NCBI RefSeq assembly: GCF_907164905.1
Contig: NZ_CAJRAF010000002.1
Location: forward strand, 2,976,001-3,040,000
Direction: 5' to 3'
Length of the DNA stretch: 64,000 nt
Source of the DNA: Dyadobacter sp. CECT 9275
GTDB lineage: Bacteria > Bacteroidota > Bacteroidia > Cytophagales > Spirosomataceae
Positions 15,937-23,258 of the stretch are shown piece after piece (positions within the stretch are counted from its first letter, which is position 1; every line of letters starts with the position of its first letter). Below the pieces are notes generated by a model. That model ran no database searches and was not told where the DNA came from. It saw nothing but the letters and a program-made list of their open reading frames with translations. A program made the translations under genes and the position numbers.

Positions 15937-16551
15937 ATGATAGCTCCTTCAGGCCCACGCACGGACATTCCTGCCCAAATGATACCCAACGCTCTGATCC
16001 ATGAAATAATTGACGGCAAACCTCTTTACAGAAAAGGTTACCGTGATGTATTATCCAAAACCAAAAAGATAGAGGATATAATGGGATCCAGTTCGCTGCA
16101 GTTTTTTATAATTGATTTTATCTTAAGAATTTTATACAGGAATGTTGATGAGGATCAATATATAATCGCTACCAACGAAGCAGGTTTGCATCTGGACCGG
16201 AGAAATAACATTGCCGGAGATATTTTGATATTCGACAAGGATGTGCTGACAATGGATAAAATCAACAGGCATTATTCCCAGGTACCTCCTAAAGTATCCA
16301 TAGAAATTGATTTGGATATTGAACTCGAAGAACTCACTGAAAGCAGCTACATTTCCATCAAAACCAAAAAACTTCTGGAATTCGGAGCCGAAAAAGTGAT
16401 CTGGTTTCTTACCGAGCAAAAGAAGGTAATGATTGCAACTAAACATACCGACTGGCTGATGGAGGATTGGGATACTAACGTTGAGATCATGCCTGGAATT
16501 ACCTGCAACTTAGGCGGATATCTCAAAGAAAAAGGATCTGAATTTGCCTGA
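15937..16551 (+). CDS. Uma2 family (DUF820) putative endonuclease
   Basis: A 204-residue protein of the Uma2/DUF820 family, which has a PD-(D/E)xK nuclease-like fold. Visible motifs are the N-terminal LIHEIIDGKPLYRKGY segment, the NIAGDILIFDKD strand (family P/A-D motif), VSIEIDLDIELEE (the acidic E-x-D strand) and KTKKLLEFGAEKVIWF, where the family usually has Y(x)K...GV..YW. Uma2 genes occur in large numbers in cyanobacteria and some Bacteroidota, often near mobile DNA; their role is unsettled. It is a single-gene unit with its own promoter and terminator. Confidence 0.8.
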   Translation: MIAPSGPRTDIPAQMIPNALIHEIIDGKPLYRKGYRDVLSKTKKIEDIMGSSSLQFFIIDFILRILYRNVDEDQYIIATNEAGLHLDRRNNIAGDILIFDKDVLTMDKINRHYSQVPPKVSIEIDLDIELEELTESSYISIKTKKLLEFGAEKVIWFLTEQKKVMIATKHTDWLMEDWDTNVEIMPGITCNLGGYLKEKGSEFA

Positions 16552-16613: not shown

Positions 16614-16649
16614 AACTAAGAAAATAGTTTTTAAACTAATTAAATAGTA
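16614..16649 (+). promoter_or_regulatory. Phased ACTA/TAGT operator-like array before blaI-type gene
   Basis: Four half-sites lie exactly 10 bp apart: ACTA 16615, TAGT 16625, ACTA 16635, TAGT 16645. They form two 16-bp dyads (AACTA-N6-TAGTT and AACTA-N6-TAGTA) whose starts are 20 bp apart, two helical turns. The array ends two bases before the -7 element at 16651. BlaI/MecI repressors bind dyads with TAGT/ACTA-containing half-sites as dimers, so autoregulation by the adjacent gene is the natural reading, but it is inferred. Confidence 0.6.
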
Positions 16650-16650
16650 T

Positions 16651-16658
16651 TACATTTG
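16651..16658 (+). promoter_or_regulatory. Bacteroidota -7 promoter element of the BlaI/M56 operon
   Basis: TACATTTG is a perfect match to TAnnTTTG. It lies 43 bp before the ATG at 16702 and abuts the operator-like array, so bound repressor would cover the promoter. Confidence 0.65.
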
Positions 16659-16701
16659 AAAAACCAAATTTAAACTCTATAAATTCTTATACAGACCTAT
16701 C

Positions 16702-17073
16702 ATGGAAATTCGTACACTCACACGCGCCGAAGAAGAAGTTATGCGCATCCTGTGGCAATTGAAAAAAGCATTTGTAAAAGATATACTGGCCGAAATGCCG
16801 GAGCCCAAGCCTGCCTATAATACGGTTTCAACCATCATCAGGATTCTCGAAAAGAAAGAAGTAGTGGGATACACGGCTTTTGGAAAAACCCACGAGTATT
16901 TCCCCCTCATCAGCGAAGAGGAATACAAACGCCATGAAATGAAGCAGCTGATGGTCAATTATTTTGATAATTCATTGCCTAACCTGGTTTCCTTTTTTGT
17001 AAAGGACAATGACCTTAAGTCCAAAGATCTGGATGAAATTATGAAACTGATCAATGATCACAAAAACAACTAA
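16702..17073 (+). CDS. BlaI/MecI/CopY family transcriptional repressor
   Basis: A 123-residue winged-helix repressor. The family start LTRAEEEVMRILWQLKKAF is followed by the recognition helix PAYNTVSTIIRILEKK (about 37-52) and the wing (VVGYTAFGKTHEYFPLIS). The C-terminal helices mediate dimerisation. In staphylococcal BlaI/MecI the sensor protease system cleaves an Asn-Phe bond in this C-terminal part; the corresponding stretch here is LVSFF (95-99). The gene is 15 bp upstream of an M56 peptidase gene, so the derepression logic of BlaI-BlaR1 is likely retained. The signal need not be a beta-lactam. Confidence 0.92.
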   Translation: MEIRTLTRAEEEVMRILWQLKKAFVKDILAEMPEPKPAYNTVSTIIRILEKKEVVGYTAFGKTHEYFPLISEEEYKRHEMKQLMVNYFDNSLPNLVSFFVKDNDLKSKDLDEIMKLINDHKNN

Positions 17074-17088
17074 ACTTTTCTGTTAGCC

Positions 17089-18567
17089 ATGAACATCCTG
17101 ATCTTTATCGGTAAGGTGAGCCTGTACTGGGTGCTTTTTTATGCCTGTTATCTCCTGTTCCTGCGGCGGCAAACCTTTTTTATCTGGAACCGTTTTTATC
17201 TGATCGCAGCACTCATTATTTCGTTTGCCCTTCCGTTTATCATTTACCCTGAGTCTGCACCAGCCCTGCCGGTCATTTACGAGATAACCAGCCAACCCTT
17301 TACTGTATCCACCGTCCAGGCAGAAACACCTTCACTGCTTACCCTGACCAATATGCTCTGGTTTGTTTATGCAATAGGAGCTGTGATCAGCGGTTTTAAG
17401 TTGTACCGCAGTATACGGCAACTCTCAGGTTTACTGCACGAGGGAGAACGCATTGAGCTGGAAGACTGCACGGTAATTTTAATAGATTCAGATCAGGTTG
17501 GTTCCTTTTCCTTCCTGAAATGGATCGTCATCAACAGGAGCGATTACGAAAATCATTTTGACGCTATACTACGGCATGAAATGATCCATGTCGGGCAGAA
17601 ACACAGTTATGATATTTTATGGATAGAATTTTTAAAAATTATATTCTGGTTTAACCCCATTCTGATCTTTTATAAAAACGCTATCCAGGAAGTACATGAA
17701 TACCTGGCCGATGAAGCGGCCCCCAACCGTGAAACCTATGCGATGTTTCTGGTTTCCTATGCCCTGAACGCCCCCATTGCTTCGCTGACGAATCATTTTT
17801 TCAAACCGTCCCAGATCAAAGCGAGGATCCGGATGATTTATAAAAACCGTTCCTCGAAATGGTTACTTAGTACCTACATGATCACGCTGTTATCTGTCGG
17901 CCTGATCGCCCTGGTGGTGGCTGGCTGCGAGCAGATCGTAGAGACGGAAACGCCCGCAGACAATGAAAAGAAAAGCAGCAAATTGAATGCCCGAGTTACC
18001 TCGCAACCCTCGCCCCAGAAGGTATTCACGGTGGTGGAAGAGCAACCCGAGTTCCCCGGTGGCATAAAAGCCATGTATGACTTCCTCGGCAGGAACGTTC
18101 ACTATCCTGAGGCGGCTGCAAAGGCCAATGTAAGCGGACGGGTTTTCCTCTCCTTTGTCGTTTCCGAAACAGGTGAAATAAGCGATATCCTGGTTCTGAA
18201 GGGAATCGGCTTTGGCTGCGACGAAGAGGCGGTGCGGGTATTGAAATCATTTCCAAAGTGGGTACCAGGCAAACAGGGAGGCCTGCCGGTGAATGTAAGG
18301 TACAATCTGCCCATTAACTTTGAGTTAACCGACGGCCAGCCAGAAATAGTCTCCAAACTGCCTGAAACCCGTGTTCAGATTACACAAAATGGTCCTGCAC
18401 CCATGTATGTTGTTAACGGCGTGATCATCACAGACACGCTTAGCCTGAAGAAAATTGATCCGGACAACATTCAGTTTATTAATGTCCGGAAAGGCGAGAG
18501 CGCCACTGAGGCGTACGGGGAAAAAGGCAAAAACGGAGTAATTGAAATTAAGACCACCTCTCTTTAA
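17089..18567 (+). CDS. M56 (BlaR1-like) metallopeptidase with C-terminal TonB and plug-like domains
   Basis: A 492-residue membrane sensor-protease. Transmembrane helices at about 1-60 and 85-105 precede the M56 catalytic domain with the HExxH zinc site (His163, Glu164, His167 in RHEMIH) and the downstream EVHEYLADE motif (about 201-209). A further helix lies near 265-285. Instead of a penicillin-binding sensor domain, the periplasmic part has a TonB C-terminal domain at about 312-422 (EEQPEFPGG, NVHYPEAA, PKWVPGKQGG). It then has a TonB-receptor-plug-like tail (VVNGVIITDTL ... EAYGEKGKNGVIEIKT). It probably senses the envelope state and inactivates the adjacent repressor. The architecture occurs in Bacteroidota; the function is unproven. 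Confidence 0.87.
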   Translation: MNILIFIGKVSLYWVLFYACYLLFLRRQTFFIWNRFYLIAALIISFALPFIIYPESAPALPVIYEITSQPFTVSTVQAETPSLLTLTNMLWFVYAIGAVISGFKLYRSIRQLSGLLHEGERIELEDCTVILIDSDQVGSFSFLKWIVINRSDYENHFDAILRHEMIHVGQKHSYDILWIEFLKIIFWFNPILIFYKNAIQEVHEYLADEAAPNRETYAMFLVSYALNAPIASLTNHFFKPSQIKARIRMIYKNRSSKWLLSTYMITLLSVGLIALVVAGCEQIVETETPADNEKKSSKLNARVTSQPSPQKVFTVVEEQPEFPGGIKAMYDFLGRNVHYPEAAAKANVSGRVFLSFVVSETGEISDILVLKGIGFGCDEEAVRVLKSFPKWVPGKQGGLPVNVRYNLPINFELTDGQPEIVSKLPETRVQITQNGPAPMYVVNGVIITDTLSLKKIDPDNIQFINVRKGESATEAYGEKGKNGVIEIKTTSL

Positions 18568-18571
18568 GTCA

Positions 18572-20620
18572 ATGGAATCACTCATTTACATTGCCAAAGT
18601 AAACCTGTTCTGGATTCTGTTTTATGGAAGCTACTGGCTGCTGTTCCGGAAACATACATTTTTTGTATGGAACAGGTTCTACCTCACCGGAACATTGTTA
18701 CTTTCCAGTATTCTGCCTCTGGTAGAATTTCCTGAAACGGAACTCCCTCCTTCGGCAAGGGTTGTCCCCGGCATCGTGTATGAGATATCCGCTGCACCTG
18801 TGGTACTCACATCAGGCCCGGCTGCAACTCCGGAAACAGATTGGTCACAGCTTGTCTGGATTTTATACTTTACCGGCTCCTGCCTGATGTTACTTCGTTT
18901 AATATATGGATTTTATCAAGTGAGAAGGCTGATCAGGCAGGGGGAATGCCTGAAGTTTGATGATTATTCCATCATTCTTTTACCGGAAGGAGAATCTGCC
19001 ATGAACAAAACCGGCTCTTTTTCATTTTTCAGATGGATGGTAATCAGTGATTATGACTACAAAAATCACCTGGATACTATTCTGAGACATGAATATATCC
19101 ATATCAGGCAATGGCATAGTATTGACATTATCCTGATCGAATTCCTGAAAGCAGGCTTCTGGTTCAACCCTGCGCTTTGGCTCTATAAACGTTCCATGCA
19201 GGAAGTCCACGAATTCCTGGCCGACGAACAGATTGCCAACCGGGAGCATTACGCCAAATTCCTCGTTTCCTACGCATTTAATGCACCGGTTCAGTCTGTT
19301 ACCAATCATTTTTTCAACTCGTCACTGCTTAAAAACCGGATCAAAATGATATACAAAAACAGAACATCCCGCTGGCTGCTGAGCAAATACCTGATGCTGA
19401 TTCCGATGACAGCCCTGGTCATCATCACTACCGCCGCCAGGAAAAAAAGTATTGCATTATTCCCCGATAAAAACGTTTCTTCTTCCAACCTTTTTAAAGA
19501 CAATACACTACCGTTATCCAACCCGCTTGAATTACTTTATCCTGAAAATCACGATGGAGAAAAGATAAGCATAAAAGGGCAGGTAACCGACGAAAAAGGT
19601 ACCGCGGTTCCGGATGCGATCGTTGTCGTCAAAAATGGCTCTCAGGGAACCGTTACCAATGTCAGTGGCGAATTTGAATTGAAAGACGTGCCAGTAGAGA
19701 GTGAGATAGTCGTGAGCCATGTTGGCTTCATAAATTCCGGATTCGTAGTGGAAAAATCCAGAACCAATTATAAAGTCAAATTACAGAAAAGCGAAAACCG
19801 GCTCTCTGAGGTTGTCGTGGTAGGATATCCATCCTCGGACTCCAAAAAAAGTATCCCTGACACTTCCGGCACTGCTTTTAAAGTAGTTGAACAAAATCCT
19901 GAATTTCCGGGAGGCGATGTAGAACTCATGAAATACATCGGCAAACACATCAGGTACCCCGCAGAAGCTTCCGTTGCAGGTGTGGAAGGAACGGTGCTGA
20001 TTTCATTTACCGTAAACCCGAATGGGGATATACGTAAGCCAACCATCGTAAAAGGTTTAGGATATGGCATTGATGACGAAGCCACCAGAATGGTCTTGAA
20101 TATGCCCAGATGGACACCGGCCCGGCAAAATGGGAAAGCTTTATCCGTAGATTATACTTTACCCATCAAATTCCAGCTTAACCATGGAGATATAAATAAT
20201 ATAAAGGAAAAACAACAAGGCTACTTTCAAAAGCCTGAAATGCCTGATGGAGTCAGGATCAATGACCTTGGGGGCGGAAGTAAGGTGGACAATGTTCTGT
20301 TTATCGTTGACGGTGTAAAAATGAAGGAACGAGGCCTGACAGGGCTTCCAAAATTGAACCCGGACGAAATTGAAAGCATTGCCGTATTAAAAGACCAAAG
20401 CGCACTTGCCGTATATGGTGAAGAAGGCAAAAATGGTGTAATTTTGGTCCGGACAAAAAAAATTAAGGAAACGACCAAACCTGCTCAGCAAAAAACACCG
20501 GCAACGGGAGGGAAATTCTATAATTACAAATATCCTTTTGACAACAATTCCTCGCAAGACCTGAGTGAAAAAACTGTTCTCGGTTACAGAATTCCCTCGG
20601 AAAAAAATCCTAAAAATTGA
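18572..20620 (+). CDS. M56 metallopeptidase with carboxypeptidase-regulatory-like, TonB and plug-like domains
   Basis: Paralogue of the preceding gene, about 682 residues (start ATG 18572, 4 bp after the previous stop). The membrane and protease part is conserved: HEYIH with His173, Glu174, His177, and EVHEFLADE at about 211-219. The periplasmic part is longer. A CarboxypepD_reg-like beta-sandwich at about 330-410 (KGQVTDEKGTAVPDA ... VVVGYPS) resembles the N-terminus of SusC proteins. It is followed by a TonB C-terminal domain at about 438-535 (EQNPEFPGG) and a SusC-plug-like signature at about 575-632 (IESIAVLKDQSALAVYG, then NGVILVRTKK). The tandem duplication with diverged sensor parts suggests two inputs to one repressor, or a hetero-oligomer. 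Confidence 0.86.
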   Translation: MESLIYIAKVNLFWILFYGSYWLLFRKHTFFVWNRFYLTGTLLLSSILPLVEFPETELPPSARVVPGIVYEISAAPVVLTSGPAATPETDWSQLVWILYFTGSCLMLLRLIYGFYQVRRLIRQGECLKFDDYSIILLPEGESAMNKTGSFSFFRWMVISDYDYKNHLDTILRHEYIHIRQWHSIDIILIEFLKAGFWFNPALWLYKRSMQEVHEFLADEQIANREHYAKFLVSYAFNAPVQSVTNHFFNSSLLKNRIKMIYKNRTSRWLLSKYLMLIPMTALVIITTAARKKSIALFPDKNVSSSNLFKDNTLPLSNPLELLYPENHDGEKISIKGQVTDEKGTAVPDAIVVVKNGSQGTVTNVSGEFELKDVPVESEIVVSHVGFINSGFVVEKSRTNYKVKLQKSENRLSEVVVVGYPSSDSKKSIPDTSGTAFKVVEQNPEFPGGDVELMKYIGKHIRYPAEASVAGVEGTVLISFTVNPNGDIRKPTIVKGLGYGIDDEATRMVLNMPRWTPARQNGKALSVDYTLPIKFQLNHGDINNIKEKQQGYFQKPEMPDGVRINDLGGGSKVDNVLFIVDGVKMKERGLTGLPKLNPDEIESIAVLKDQSALAVYGEEGKNGVILVRTKKIKETTKPAQQKTPATGGKFYNYKYPFDNNSSQDLSEKTVLGYRIPSEKNPKN

Positions 20621-21672
20621 CGCAGCCAATTCAAAAACCACGCCACAAAGTTGCCATCATTGGAGGCGGACATATTGCGGAGCAAAACCATATTCCCGCT
20701 TTACAGAAGTTATCACATCGTACGGAGATCATTGCCATCTGCAGCCGCGATAAAAGCAAAGCACGTTTGCTTGCCGATAAGTTTGCTATCCCTTTTGCCT
20801 ATGATAATACAGAGGAGCTGTTTTCCAGCAGCAGGCCGGATATCATTATCAACTGTACGGCAAACAATCTTCATTATCCATTTACCATGCAGGCGCTTGA
20901 AAACGGCTGTCATGTTTTATGTGAAAAACCACCTGCCATGCGTGCCTTAGAAGCCCGAGAAATGGCAGATACCGCTGAAAAATACGGCAAGACCCTCGCT
21001 TATAATTTCCAGCGCCGCCAAACACAGGAATATCAGTTACTGCAAAAATGCCAGCAGGAAGGCAAACTTGGTGAGATATACCATGTCAAAGCCAATTTCC
21101 TGAGACGGCGCGGGATACCTGGCTGGGGAAATTTCACCAACAGGGAAATACAGGGAGGAGGCGCGCTTATTGACCTGGGTGTGCATGTGCTGGACCTGGC
21201 GATGGGATTGATGAATTACGAAAAGCCCGATCGTATTGTGGCCAATACCTACAACTTCCTGGGCAAAGCTGGCGGCAAAGGATTGCTAGGTGCATGGGAT
21301 CCGGCTAAATTTGAGGTAGAAGATGCCTGTTTTGCCTATCTTTCCTTTCCTGGAAAAGCTTCCATCATGCTTTCTGCTTCCTTTGCGCTGAATACGCAAG
21401 AGGCTAAAAACATCAATCTTGAAGTATTCGGTACACAGGCCGGCGCGGTGCTGCATCCTTTTTCCTTACATACCGAATTCGCCGGAGAACTGGCGGACGT
21501 CCATTTCCCGTTCCTGGAAGATGAAAACATACAACTGAAAAACACCATTGCCTTTCTGGATGCTTGTGACGGACAAGTATCAAATATCTGCTCAGCCCGG
21601 GAAGGTGCCGTTTTACAGGAGATAGTTGAAAACATCTATCAGAGTGCAGGTATGTTTGGTCAGAAAATGTAG
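20617..21672 (+). CDS. Gfo/Idh/MocA family NAD(P)-dependent oxidoreductase
   Basis: A 351-residue sugar dehydrogenase-like protein. The N-terminal Rossmann fold is marked by VAIIGGGHIAEQNHIPAL. The cofactor/substrate motif LCEKPPAM lies near residues 108-115, and the C-terminal beta-sheet domain begins near 125 with GGALIDLGVHVLDLAM as the family substrate signature. The start is TTG 20617, overlapping the upstream TGA (TTGA); no ATG lies before the glycine-rich loop, so a coupled TTG start is accepted. The substrate is unknown. Whether it belongs functionally with the M56 genes is doubtful; it may simply share their transcript. Confidence 0.85.
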   Translation: MTQPIQKPRHKVAIIGGGHIAEQNHIPALQKLSHRTEIIAICSRDKSKARLLADKFAIPFAYDNTEELFSSSRPDIIINCTANNLHYPFTMQALENGCHVLCEKPPAMRALEAREMADTAEKYGKTLAYNFQRRQTQEYQLLQKCQQEGKLGEIYHVKANFLRRRGIPGWGNFTNREIQGGGALIDLGVHVLDLAMGLMNYEKPDRIVANTYNFLGKAGGKGLLGAWDPAKFEVEDACFAYLSFPGKASIMLSASFALNTQEAKNINLEVFGTQAGAVLHPFSLHTEFAGELADVHFPFLEDENIQLKNTIAFLDACDGQVSNICSAREGAVLQEIVENIYQSAGMFGQKM

Positions 21673-21771: not shown

Positions 21772-22164
21772 CTATTTGGCAGTAGCCATCACCATTTTAA
21801 TATCCTGCTTGGCACCTACCTGCAGGACATCTACCAGATCCTGCACTGCCAGATTTTTGTCAACCCGCAGTACTACCGTCCTGTCTTCCACGCCTGCAAA
21901 AATGGTCTGAAGCTCGGTTTCAAGGCGTTCAAAAGGGATGGGTTCCTTGTCAATATAATAAACCTTGTGTTCATCAATGGAAAGGGTAATCTGCTTTTTA
22001 TACATCTGCTGCGTAGCCGAAGCTTTTGGCAGCATCAGTTTGATCACGTTCGGATTGGACATCGTGGAGATGATCAGGAAGAAAAGCAGCAGGAAAAACA
22101 TAATATCGTTAAGGGAGTGTGTAAACACCTCCGGGGCGAACCTGGCCTTACGACGTATTTTCAT
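21772..22164 (-). CDS. exbD: ExbD/TolR biopolymer transport protein
   Basis: A 130-residue component of a proton-driven energy transducer. The N-terminus is short and basic (KIRRKARFAPEVFTHSLNDI). A single transmembrane helix follows (MFFLLLFFLIISTM) with an upstream Asn-Asp pair; the conserved proton-carrying Asp of ExbD is the Asp in SLNDIMFFLL. The periplasmic domain is about 85 residues (ITLSIDEHKVYYIDKE ... VVLRVDKNLAVQDLVDVL). It lies 62 bp downstream of exbB on the same strand. The complex would energise TonB for SusC-type receptors. No tonB gene lies next to it. Confidence 0.92.
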   Translation of the reverse strand: MKIRRKARFAPEVFTHSLNDIMFFLLLFFLIISTMSNPNVIKLMLPKASATQQMYKKQITLSIDEHKVYYIDKEPIPFERLETELQTIFAGVEDRTVVLRVDKNLAVQDLVDVLQVGAKQDIKMVMATAK

Positions 22165-22227: not shown

Positions 22228-22908
22228 TTACTTGGATGTTACCGGCTTCTGCAGTACATCGATAAAGTCCGAGGCGGCCATTTGCAAACGAAGTGCAAAA
22301 CGGTCAATTTTCATGTTCAGGAGGTGATAACCTGCATACGCAATCAAACCGAGTATCAGACCACTCCCCGAGGTAATCATTTTTTCATACATACCGCCCG
22401 CAATGGTACTGATATTGAAGTCATTGGAAACAGATATGTCGTAGAAAATCCGGATGATACCGGCAATAGTACCCACAAAACCAAGCATCGGTGCAATACC
22501 TGCAATCACCCCCAGATAAGGCAGGTTCCCTTCCATCCGTTGAATTTCGATCTGACTTGCATTTTCAATGCTGGTCTCGATATCCTTGATCGGATAACCG
22601 ATGCGCCCTATTGCCCTTTCAAAAATTCTTCCCGCTGCATTACGCTGATTGCGGCAAAGAGACTCTGCAGATTTCAGATTCCCCTGCTGAATAAAATCTT
22701 TCACGTTATCCACAAACTGACTTTCAATTTTGCCGTTGGCAGTGATGGCCAGAAACCGTTCAATAATCAAAAATAAGGTTACAAGAAACAATAGCCCCAG
22801 GGGGAACATTACCCATCCGCCTTTTCCAAGGAGGTCAATAAGAGAAAGCCCTTGGGTTGCCGCAGGGGCTACCAAAGTAGAGTCAGTAAGTGCTTGAAGA
22901 AGCATCAT
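22228..22908 (-). CDS. exbB: MotA/TolQ/ExbB proton channel protein
   Basis: A 226-residue inner-membrane protein with three transmembrane helices: GWVMFPLGLLFLVTLFLIIERFLAI near 30-55, then YLGVIAGIAPMLGFVGTIAGII and the last near 165-190 (GSGLILGLIAYAGYHLL). The conserved GTIAGI proline/glycine-rich pore motif is present. The start at 22908 (MMLLQALTD) fits the family; a longer frame from 23001 would start about seven bases after the predicted transcription start and adds a non-homologous stretch. It pairs with exbD downstream. Confidence 0.9.
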   Translation of the reverse strand: MMLLQALTDSTLVAPAATQGLSLIDLLGKGGWVMFPLGLLFLVTLFLIIERFLAITANGKIESQFVDNVKDFIQQGNLKSAESLCRNQRNAAGRIFERAIGRIGYPIKDIETSIENASQIEIQRMEGNLPYLGVIAGIAPMLGFVGTIAGIIRIFYDISVSNDFNISTIAGGMYEKMITSGSGLILGLIAYAGYHLLNMKIDRFALRLQMAASDFIDVLQKPVTSK

Positions 22909-23258
22909 ATTACAGGGTGAAAAGTGAAAAGTTAAGCTAGTGAAAAAGTGGTCACTTCCTATGAAAACGACTTTGAACATAAACGGAGCAAATTCCTCCA
23001 TATTGTTTAAAGGGCAAATATAGAAAAATTACTCTTTGCCTCCGTACCGTTTTAGTACCTTCACAAAAGAAGGATACCCAACTTTTAACAAAAGCACTTC
23101 TGATCCCCCTGAAATAATAAGAGCGATGCCCCGGTAAATAAATATTGACTTTTCTTATGACCGCGCGCAGTATTAAACCTTAATTAAAATACTTGAAAAT
23201 TGATTTTTGGGTTGTTTCTTTGTAAAAATTTGAGCGGAATCATATTAACCAATACGTA
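22909..23258. other. Divergent intergenic region, 350 bp
   Basis: Carries the exbB promoter on the minus strand (see 23015-23022). Upstream of the plus-strand DUF6787 gene, TTTCTTTG at 23215-23222 matches seven of eight -7 positions. No coding sequence or stable RNA was recognised. Confidence 0.5.
23015..23022 (-). promoter_or_regulatory. -7 promoter element of exbB-exbD
   Basis: Reads TATATTTG on the minus strand, a perfect TAnnTTTG. It implies a leader of about 100 bases before the exbB ATG at 22908 and helps decide that start. Confidence 0.5.

Follow-up and report, generated by a model that had tools for sequence, protein, structure and literature searches.

We analysed a 64,000-nucleotide stretch of Dyadobacter-like Spirosomataceae DNA (the window; Dyadobacter sp. 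CECT 9275, contig NZ_CAJRAF010000002.1, positions 2,976,001 to 3,040,000, genome size 7.2 Mb), in which the BlaI/MecI-family repressor gene blaI is followed by two genes for BlaR1-like M56 metalloproteases, M56-A and M56-B. An earlier note on this DNA had described one BlaI-type repressor and two tandem M56 proteases with intact HExxH sites, a gene content that we confirmed, and had proposed that they monitor TonB-dependent transport or outer-membrane receptor assembly. The operon and the domains of its products, including a SusC-type N-terminal extension (NTE), lie at the following window positions.

16614..16629, + strand: operator copy 1, AACTAAGAAAATAGTT, 10/10 consensus bases
16634..16649, + strand: operator copy 2, AACTAATTAAATAGTA, 9/10 consensus bases, 20 bp from copy 1
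16651..16658, + strand: promoter-like element, TACATTTG, matching TAnnTTTG and starting one base past operator copy 2
16702..17073, + strand: blaI, BlaI/MecI-family repressor, 123 amino acids, Pfam Penicillinase_R and structure match
17089..18567, + strand: M56-A, BlaR1-like metalloprotease, 492 amino acids, HEMIH at residue 163, TonB_C, plug-like tail
18019..18327, + strand: M56-A TonB C-terminal domain, residues 311-413
18361..18564, + strand: M56-A plug-like tail, residues 425-492, C-terminal half of the SusC plug
18572..20620, + strand: M56-B, BlaR1-like metalloprotease, 682 amino acids, HEYIH at residue 173, SusC NTE, Ton box, TonB_C, plug-like tail
19559..19795, + strand: M56-B SusC-type NTE (PF13715), residues 330-408
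19802..19828, + strand: M56-B Ton-box-like LSEVVVVGY, residues 411-419
19889..20185, + strand: M56-B TonB C-terminal domain, residues 440-538
20246..20467, + strand: M56-B plug-like tail with SusC signature, residues 559-632

Proteases built with TonB and SusC parts

The blaI product scores 114.7 bits against Penicillinase_R (cut-off 22.6) and matches the BlaI and MecI structures with E values of 2.5e-9 and 3.6e-9. Both proteases have an intact HExxH zinc site together with the third-ligand Glu, and the catalytic residues are invariant across 75 aligned M56 proteins, comprising the 2 window proteins and 73 anchors from the phylum loci described below (4 of 77 loci, L133, L148, L149 and L151, were dropped by a length and position filter). 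The predicted folds of M56-A and M56-B match BlaR1 and TonB, and the TonB C-terminal domains are recognised both by the TonB_C profile and by fold. The domain order is M56, TonB_C, plug tail in M56-A and M56, SusC NTE, Ton box, TonB_C, plug tail in M56-B, whose length is counted from the ATG at 18572 in an open reading frame (ORF) that opens earlier, at TTG 18542. About 30 residues separate the last membrane helix of M56-A from its TonB domain; the chain is longer in M56-B, where the NTE lies between. The layout of a TonB transducer, with a single N-terminal anchor and a long proline-rich linker, is not seen, the M56 anchor having several helices.

The earlier note had also described SusC-plug-like tails. 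The M56-A tail matches the SusC structure and M56-B has the SusC signature. Structure prediction, which the note had named as a possible refutation, returned TonB folds in the C-terminal domains and a SusC plug match in M56-A; the M56-B plug tail had no match among the best 50 structure-search rows listed, which is evidence neither way. Missed in the earlier note were the NTE of M56-B, which also matches SusC structurally, and its Ton box. PF13715 is followed by a Ton box in M56-B only, and this Ton box aligns with that of the levan SusC. The Ton box is required for SusC function, according to the available part of PMC7782687. A short strand at the M56-B Ton box was considered as a sign of binding in cis and dropped, since the predicted local distance difference test score (pLDDT) there is below 50. 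No barrel family was found in Pfam matches of the window M56 proteins at E<=1, and their models contain no barrel.

The TonB_C domains stand where BlaR1 has its beta-lactam sensor, as had been claimed. The presence of the BlaI and M56 families could point to an ordinary beta-lactam resistance regulator with decorated tails; we consider this very improbable, since the 75 proteins match 23 Pfam families at E<=0.01, none of which is a penicillin-binding sensor domain.

BlaR1 cuts BlaI directly, between Asn101 and Phe102 (PMC9834060, available part). In the window repressor, Phe98-Phe99 align with this scissile N101-F102 and lie inside S97-F98-F99, a motif largely conserved across 125 BlaI proteins, of which 120 have the Ser, 121 the first Phe and 109 the second. 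By analogy, M56-A and M56-B may cleave BlaI at this position. The BlaR1 fold, the catalytic residues, the conserved Phe and the gene linkage described below support the BlaR1-like relay that the earlier note had suggested.

Three neighbouring genes lie downstream:

20617..21672, + strand: Gfo/Idh/MocA oxidoreductase ORF, overlapping the end of M56-B, start codon uncertain
21772..22164, - strand: exbD-family gene, convergent neighbour, PF02472, 91.0 bits, over the Pfam cut-off
22228..23001, - strand: exbB-family gene, convergent neighbour, PF01618 MotA_ExbB, 73.2 bits, over the Pfam cut-off

A Gfo/Idh/MocA-like gene is also present in 8 other fetched family loci. Upstream of blaI, a 204-amino-acid ORF (15937-16551), which by eye we take to be Uma2-like, has no significant Pfam or NCBIfam match. 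Six named Dyadobacter records contain the operator, blaI, three M56 genes and the convergent exbD-exbB pair, as compared to two M56 genes in the window; the third M56 gene is split in record L038.

Linkage to BlaI and the exchangeable periplasmic end

We searched 296 phylum genomes with the M56 part of M56-B. There were matches in 126, and one region each was fetched from 77 of these, among the matches listed and leaving the own genome aside; 40 further family regions were taken, two of which are short contigs already in the set. A BlaI gene lies directly upstream of the M56 gene in 77/77 phylum loci. The constant BlaI linkage that the earlier note had asked about thus holds across the Bacteroidota loci, which rules out chance linkage. 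Since the loci share descent, such counts do not represent independent events. All 5 BlaI genes in the own genome adjoin an M56 gene. There is strong support for the parts, the folds, the linkage and, as described below, the operator of the system.

Among the 75 proteins, Pfam matches at E<=0.01 comprise TonB_C (31), Plug (12), MORN_2 (9), CarbopepD_reg_2 (6), Por_Secre_tail (3), Amidase_3 (2) and ExbD (2). Judged from these profiles, the periplasmic end is exchangeable, and TonB and SusC parts are its commonest recognised kind. An M56, TonB_C and plug architecture fixed across Bacteroidota, for which the earlier note had proposed a search, was rejected as a family rule with these counts, the tails varying widely. 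A wider Ton box pattern was found in 26 of 58 proteins with an NTE and TonB_C, as compared to 1.6 in shuffled linkers; it was written after the linkers had been viewed, so that this count is post hoc, and the strict and loose patterns gave 3/58 and 4/58. Among family loci with M56-TonB, 15/42 have exbD-like genes. Separate TonB_C genes occur in 10/28 M56-TonB loci elsewhere and in 1/47 loci without TonB_C.

Several loci depart from the window arrangement. Tandem M56-TonB arrays, with up to five M56 ORFs and protease-free sensor copies per run, occur in L157, L158, L159, L161 and L163. Small separate TonB_C proteins, whose N-terminus looks exported by eye, lie within blaI-M56 runs in L174 (Pfam-confirmed), L175, L180-L185 and others. 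In L081, L084, L089, L092, L095 and L124, blaI-M56-TonB_C is followed by a protein of about 400 amino acids, which has TPR repeats in L081, and by a lipoprotein-like TonB_C protein. An M56 protein of L154 (5446-6837, - strand), one of the two that match ExbD, has an ExbD-like part that scores 20.9 bits, below the cut-off of 25.4, over profile positions 53-121 of 128. Those of L083 and L101 combine TonB_C, Plug and a C-terminal type IX secretion sorting tail, which is odd on a polytopic inner-membrane protein, and those of L100 and L123 carry an N-acetylmuramoyl-L-alanine amidase domain.

The operator and its candidate target genes

The upstream regions of 125 BlaI genes (42 from the family including the window, 83 others), searched for palindromes, yielded AACTAN6TAGTT. 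The exact site is present upstream of 77/125 of these genes, 42/42 in the family and 35/83 elsewhere, as compared to 0.15 exact sites per 125 upstream regions in first-order Markov shuffles. By sequence, the window repressor thus has a palindromic operator at its own promoter, as BlaI/MecI repressors do, and the promoter-like element beside it corresponds to TAnnTTTG, the Bacteroidota -7 element consensus. There are a total of 5 exact sites in the own genome and 31 sites for the reversed pattern. None of the four further BlaI genes in this genome is preceded by an exact site, the matches there being 9/10 for two and 7/10 for the other two; the exact site is therefore probably that of the window BlaI. 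These four BlaI-M56 pairs (L075-L078) have different upstream palindromes, some of them TACGAA-TTCGTA. Paired operators were found in 99/121 family genomes, mostly in 1-3 places each, and the reversed paired pattern in only 4/121.

We read 20 regions with paired sites, several of which are further blaI-M56 operons. In five regions (L236, L238, L240, L242 and L247) the paired site lies directly before tonB in exbB-exbD-exbD-tonB runs, every member of which is Pfam-confirmed in L238. In the product of the operator-bearing tonB, a hydrophobic N-terminal stretch and a linker rich in proline are present, as in a true transducer. Operons of the form blaI-exbD-M56-TonB_C (L237, L239, L241 and L246; ExbD confirmed in L239 and L246) occur in three of the genera with tonB as a candidate target. 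Taking one best-matching tonB from genomes that hold several, the exact site is present in 21/21 examined genomes of seven sister genera (g141, g144, g149, g159, g167, g170 and g173) and in 0/47 of other genera, the own genome included. The 70 loci behind these counts, 2 of them without upstream DNA, comprise the 30 best-scoring and 40 from genomes that we chose; six g159 genomes were chosen after sites had already been seen in five of them. Of the 30 best-scoring loci, 15/28 have the site, 2 being without upstream DNA. The order sample supplied 29 tonB loci, one of which lacked upstream DNA. None of the other 28, which include 21 from outside the family, has the operator, and on these loci we rejected the idea that its presence at tonB reaches beyond the family.

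The second candidate target is a gene for an outer-membrane barrel, with the paired site before it in four regions (L229 and L233-L235). Its own-genome product (L370) scores 161.9 bits against OMP_b-brl_3 and 44.5 bits against the TonB-dependent receptor barrel (cut-off 27), over the Pfam cut-off in both cases, and carries a CarboxypepD_reg domain with no Plug match in Pfam; the barrel protein of G319 (L229) has a sub-threshold Plug in addition. Within 300 bp upstream of the family orthologues, the operator is exact in 19/30 loci, the own genome among them, and matches at least 9/10 bases in 29/30, the single exception being L350 with 8/10. Without the seed L349 and the own-genome L370, both known beforehand to have sites, these values are 17/28 and 27/28. 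By comparison, 14/997 other ORFs have an exact site within 250 bp, and some of these 14 are M56 genes of these loci. As judged from operator positions compared across genomes, the putative regulon is strongly linked to Ton and receptor genes. The link to TonB-dependent transport proposed in the earlier note thereby gains independent support from the operator targets: the receptor-like barrel gene, tonB in seven genera and the blaI-exbD-M56 operons in three.

In the own genome a further paired operator (L195, position 1501) precedes a thioredoxin/AhpC-TSA-like gene (1560-2762). Single sites in L196, before an ArsR-type regulator gene, and in L197 could be due to chance.

These targets bear on two other explanations. 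The system might be a general envelope or cell-wall stress switch, with peptidoglycan or damaged envelope as the ligand of the TonB-like domain and an envelope response of which the barrel and tonB genes are simply a part. The amidase, MORN and type IX secretion tail modules of the family would fit such a switch, and BlaR1 itself responds to cell-wall drugs (PMC9834060, in the part available). Ton and receptor genes make up most of the operator targets that we identified, and ExbD is co-encoded in three genera; the thioredoxin-like target is compatible with either view. On balance we regard a general stress switch as unlikely. It is less probable still that the M56-TonB proteins and separate TonB_C proteins are themselves the effectors, occupying Ton boxes to stop uptake, such as that of bacteriocins or phages using TonB receptors. 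Such effectors would be consistent with the frequent presence in the operons of protease-free copies of the sensor and of small TonB_C proteins that look exported, with the single paired operator in many family genomes and with the operator at blaI promoters. Up-regulation of tonB and receptor genes in the same regulon would oppose their action, and the sole paired site of five g159 genomes lies at tonB.

A candidate switch for the Ton system and its known relatives

We put the probability at about 0.55 that the operon encodes a BlaR1/BlaI-type proteolytic switch reporting on the Ton energy-transduction and TonB-dependent receptor system. At rest, a BlaI dimer would occupy the tandem AACTAN6TAGTT and repress its own operon and the TonB-receptor-like barrel gene; in sister genera tonB, and exbD inside the blaI operon, would be repressed too. 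By analogy with BlaR1, M56-A and M56-B would sit in the inner membrane as zinc proteases, the protease part facing the cytoplasm and the TonB and SusC parts the periplasm. BlaR1 activation has been proposed to occur by ligand displacement of a loop from the sensor (PMC9834060, available part). In a similar way, the TonB domain may be held by the protein's own SusC-like parts (Ton box and plug tail), or rest otherwise, until free or unengaged components of the Ton system, located near the inner membrane, come into competition, upon which the sensor would shift and the protease be set free. Candidate competitors are Ton boxes or plugs of not-yet-assembled receptors, ExbD, or TonB. The released protease would cut BlaI at the conserved S-F-F, and levels of the operon and of the Ton and receptor genes would rise. 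Operator binding by BlaI, the ligand and the direction of the response are as we infer them. A more novel reading, a homeostatic controller of the Ton motor by regulated proteolysis in which the two sides of the TonB-receptor contact, the TonB domain and the SusC Ton box and plug, both lie on the protease and act as a self-occupied gauge and Ton demand derepresses tonB, exbD and receptor genes through BlaI, is tentative, and we give it somewhat less than an even chance.

A special form, whose odds overlap with those of the Ton-system switch as a whole, is a sensor of receptor biogenesis, in which the TonB domain catches periplasmic SusC-type receptors by their Ton boxes before they are assembled, much as DegS reads unassembled barrels. 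The short linker holds the M56-A TonB domain close to the inner membrane; the NTE, Ton box and plug are parts that a receptor would expose prior to barrel insertion, and the shared target encodes an outer-membrane barrel. Assembly stress would not obviously be relieved by more TonB, ExbD and receptor, and among the genes next to the sites read, most of them assessed by eye, we recognised none for a chaperone or protease. A sensor of receptor biogenesis seems to us rather doubtful.

Several observations weigh against the Ton-system switch. With a linker of about 30 residues, M56-A is unlikely to reach outer-membrane receptors as TonB does; it more probably touches partners near the inner membrane (ExbD, TonB or receptors in transit) than receptors already assembled. 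In the M56-B model, pLDDT falls below 50 around the Ton box, and among NTE-TonB_C proteins a Ton box was found only in the 26 counted above, one of which is doubtful. Only 31 of the 75 family proteins have TonB_C and only 12 Plug, the others having MORN repeats, amidase, type IX secretion tails or unrecognised ends; Ton-system sensing cannot therefore be the role of all family members, nor can the plug tail be needed in every sensor. The sensors of L237, L239, L241 and L246 have TonB_C without NTE or plug tail. The best-matching tonB of the own genome lacks the operator, so that tonB control is seen in relatives only, and the 9/10 matches before two other own-genome BlaI genes make cross-binding by paralogues possible. 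Among 162 M56 ORFs of at least 350 amino acids, 18 are not joined to BlaI by the contiguity rule, many of them sitting later in the same runs, and 2 lack HExxH (L163:9236-10552 and L188:8062-9132; perhaps inactive sensor copies). Overall, the interpretation of the earlier note is partly supported; its proposal of TonB or a mis-assembled receptor as the ligand, with the plug tail acting as a receptor mimic, stays hypothetical.

Bacteroidota rely on TonB-dependent uptake, in which many receptors share few TonB motors. We know of no description of how the supply of Ton motors is matched to receptors, a point on which no dedicated search was made. A circuit with its operator sequence and candidate target genes is now available for direct testing. 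The analysis also suggests that, in much of the phylum, quite different sensors use the BlaR1/BlaI relay familiar from antibiotic resistance. The earlier note knew of no described function for the architecture; in the open-licence PMC literature, titles and the starts of abstracts among the matches listed include no paper on M56-TonB or BlaI-TonB. A Porphyromonas M56 gene and BlaI gene appear in tables only in the available part of PMC10470040.

As in the BlaR1-BlaI and MecR1-MecI systems of staphylococci, a protease of BlaR1 fold with conserved catalytic residues lies beside a BlaI-family repressor, which has a Phe at the cut position and a palindromic site at its own promoter. Unlike these systems, the sensor is made of TonB_C and SusC parts with no penicillin-binding domain, the operator is AACTAN6TAGTT, blaZ or mecA give way to a receptor-like barrel gene and, among relatives, to tonB and exbD as candidate targets, and the repressor gene comes first; in staphylococci the order is the opposite. 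M56-B resembles SusC/RagA transporters in having the NTE, Ton box and C-terminal plug half in SusC order, but it has no barrel, a TonB domain replaces the first plug half, and the whole is borne on a membrane protease. That TonB domain also differs from the energy transducer in lying on a protease, without the long proline-rich linker of the relatives' true TonB. Inner-membrane regulators that read outer-membrane receptors are known from STN and anti-sigma signalling by TonB-dependent receptors (PMC7782687, available part); the Dma anti-sigma factors of Bacteroidota are described as dual-membrane-spanning in the accessible portion of PMC13088901. Those systems work via anti-sigma factors, whereas the one described here would use a zinc protease and a repressor.

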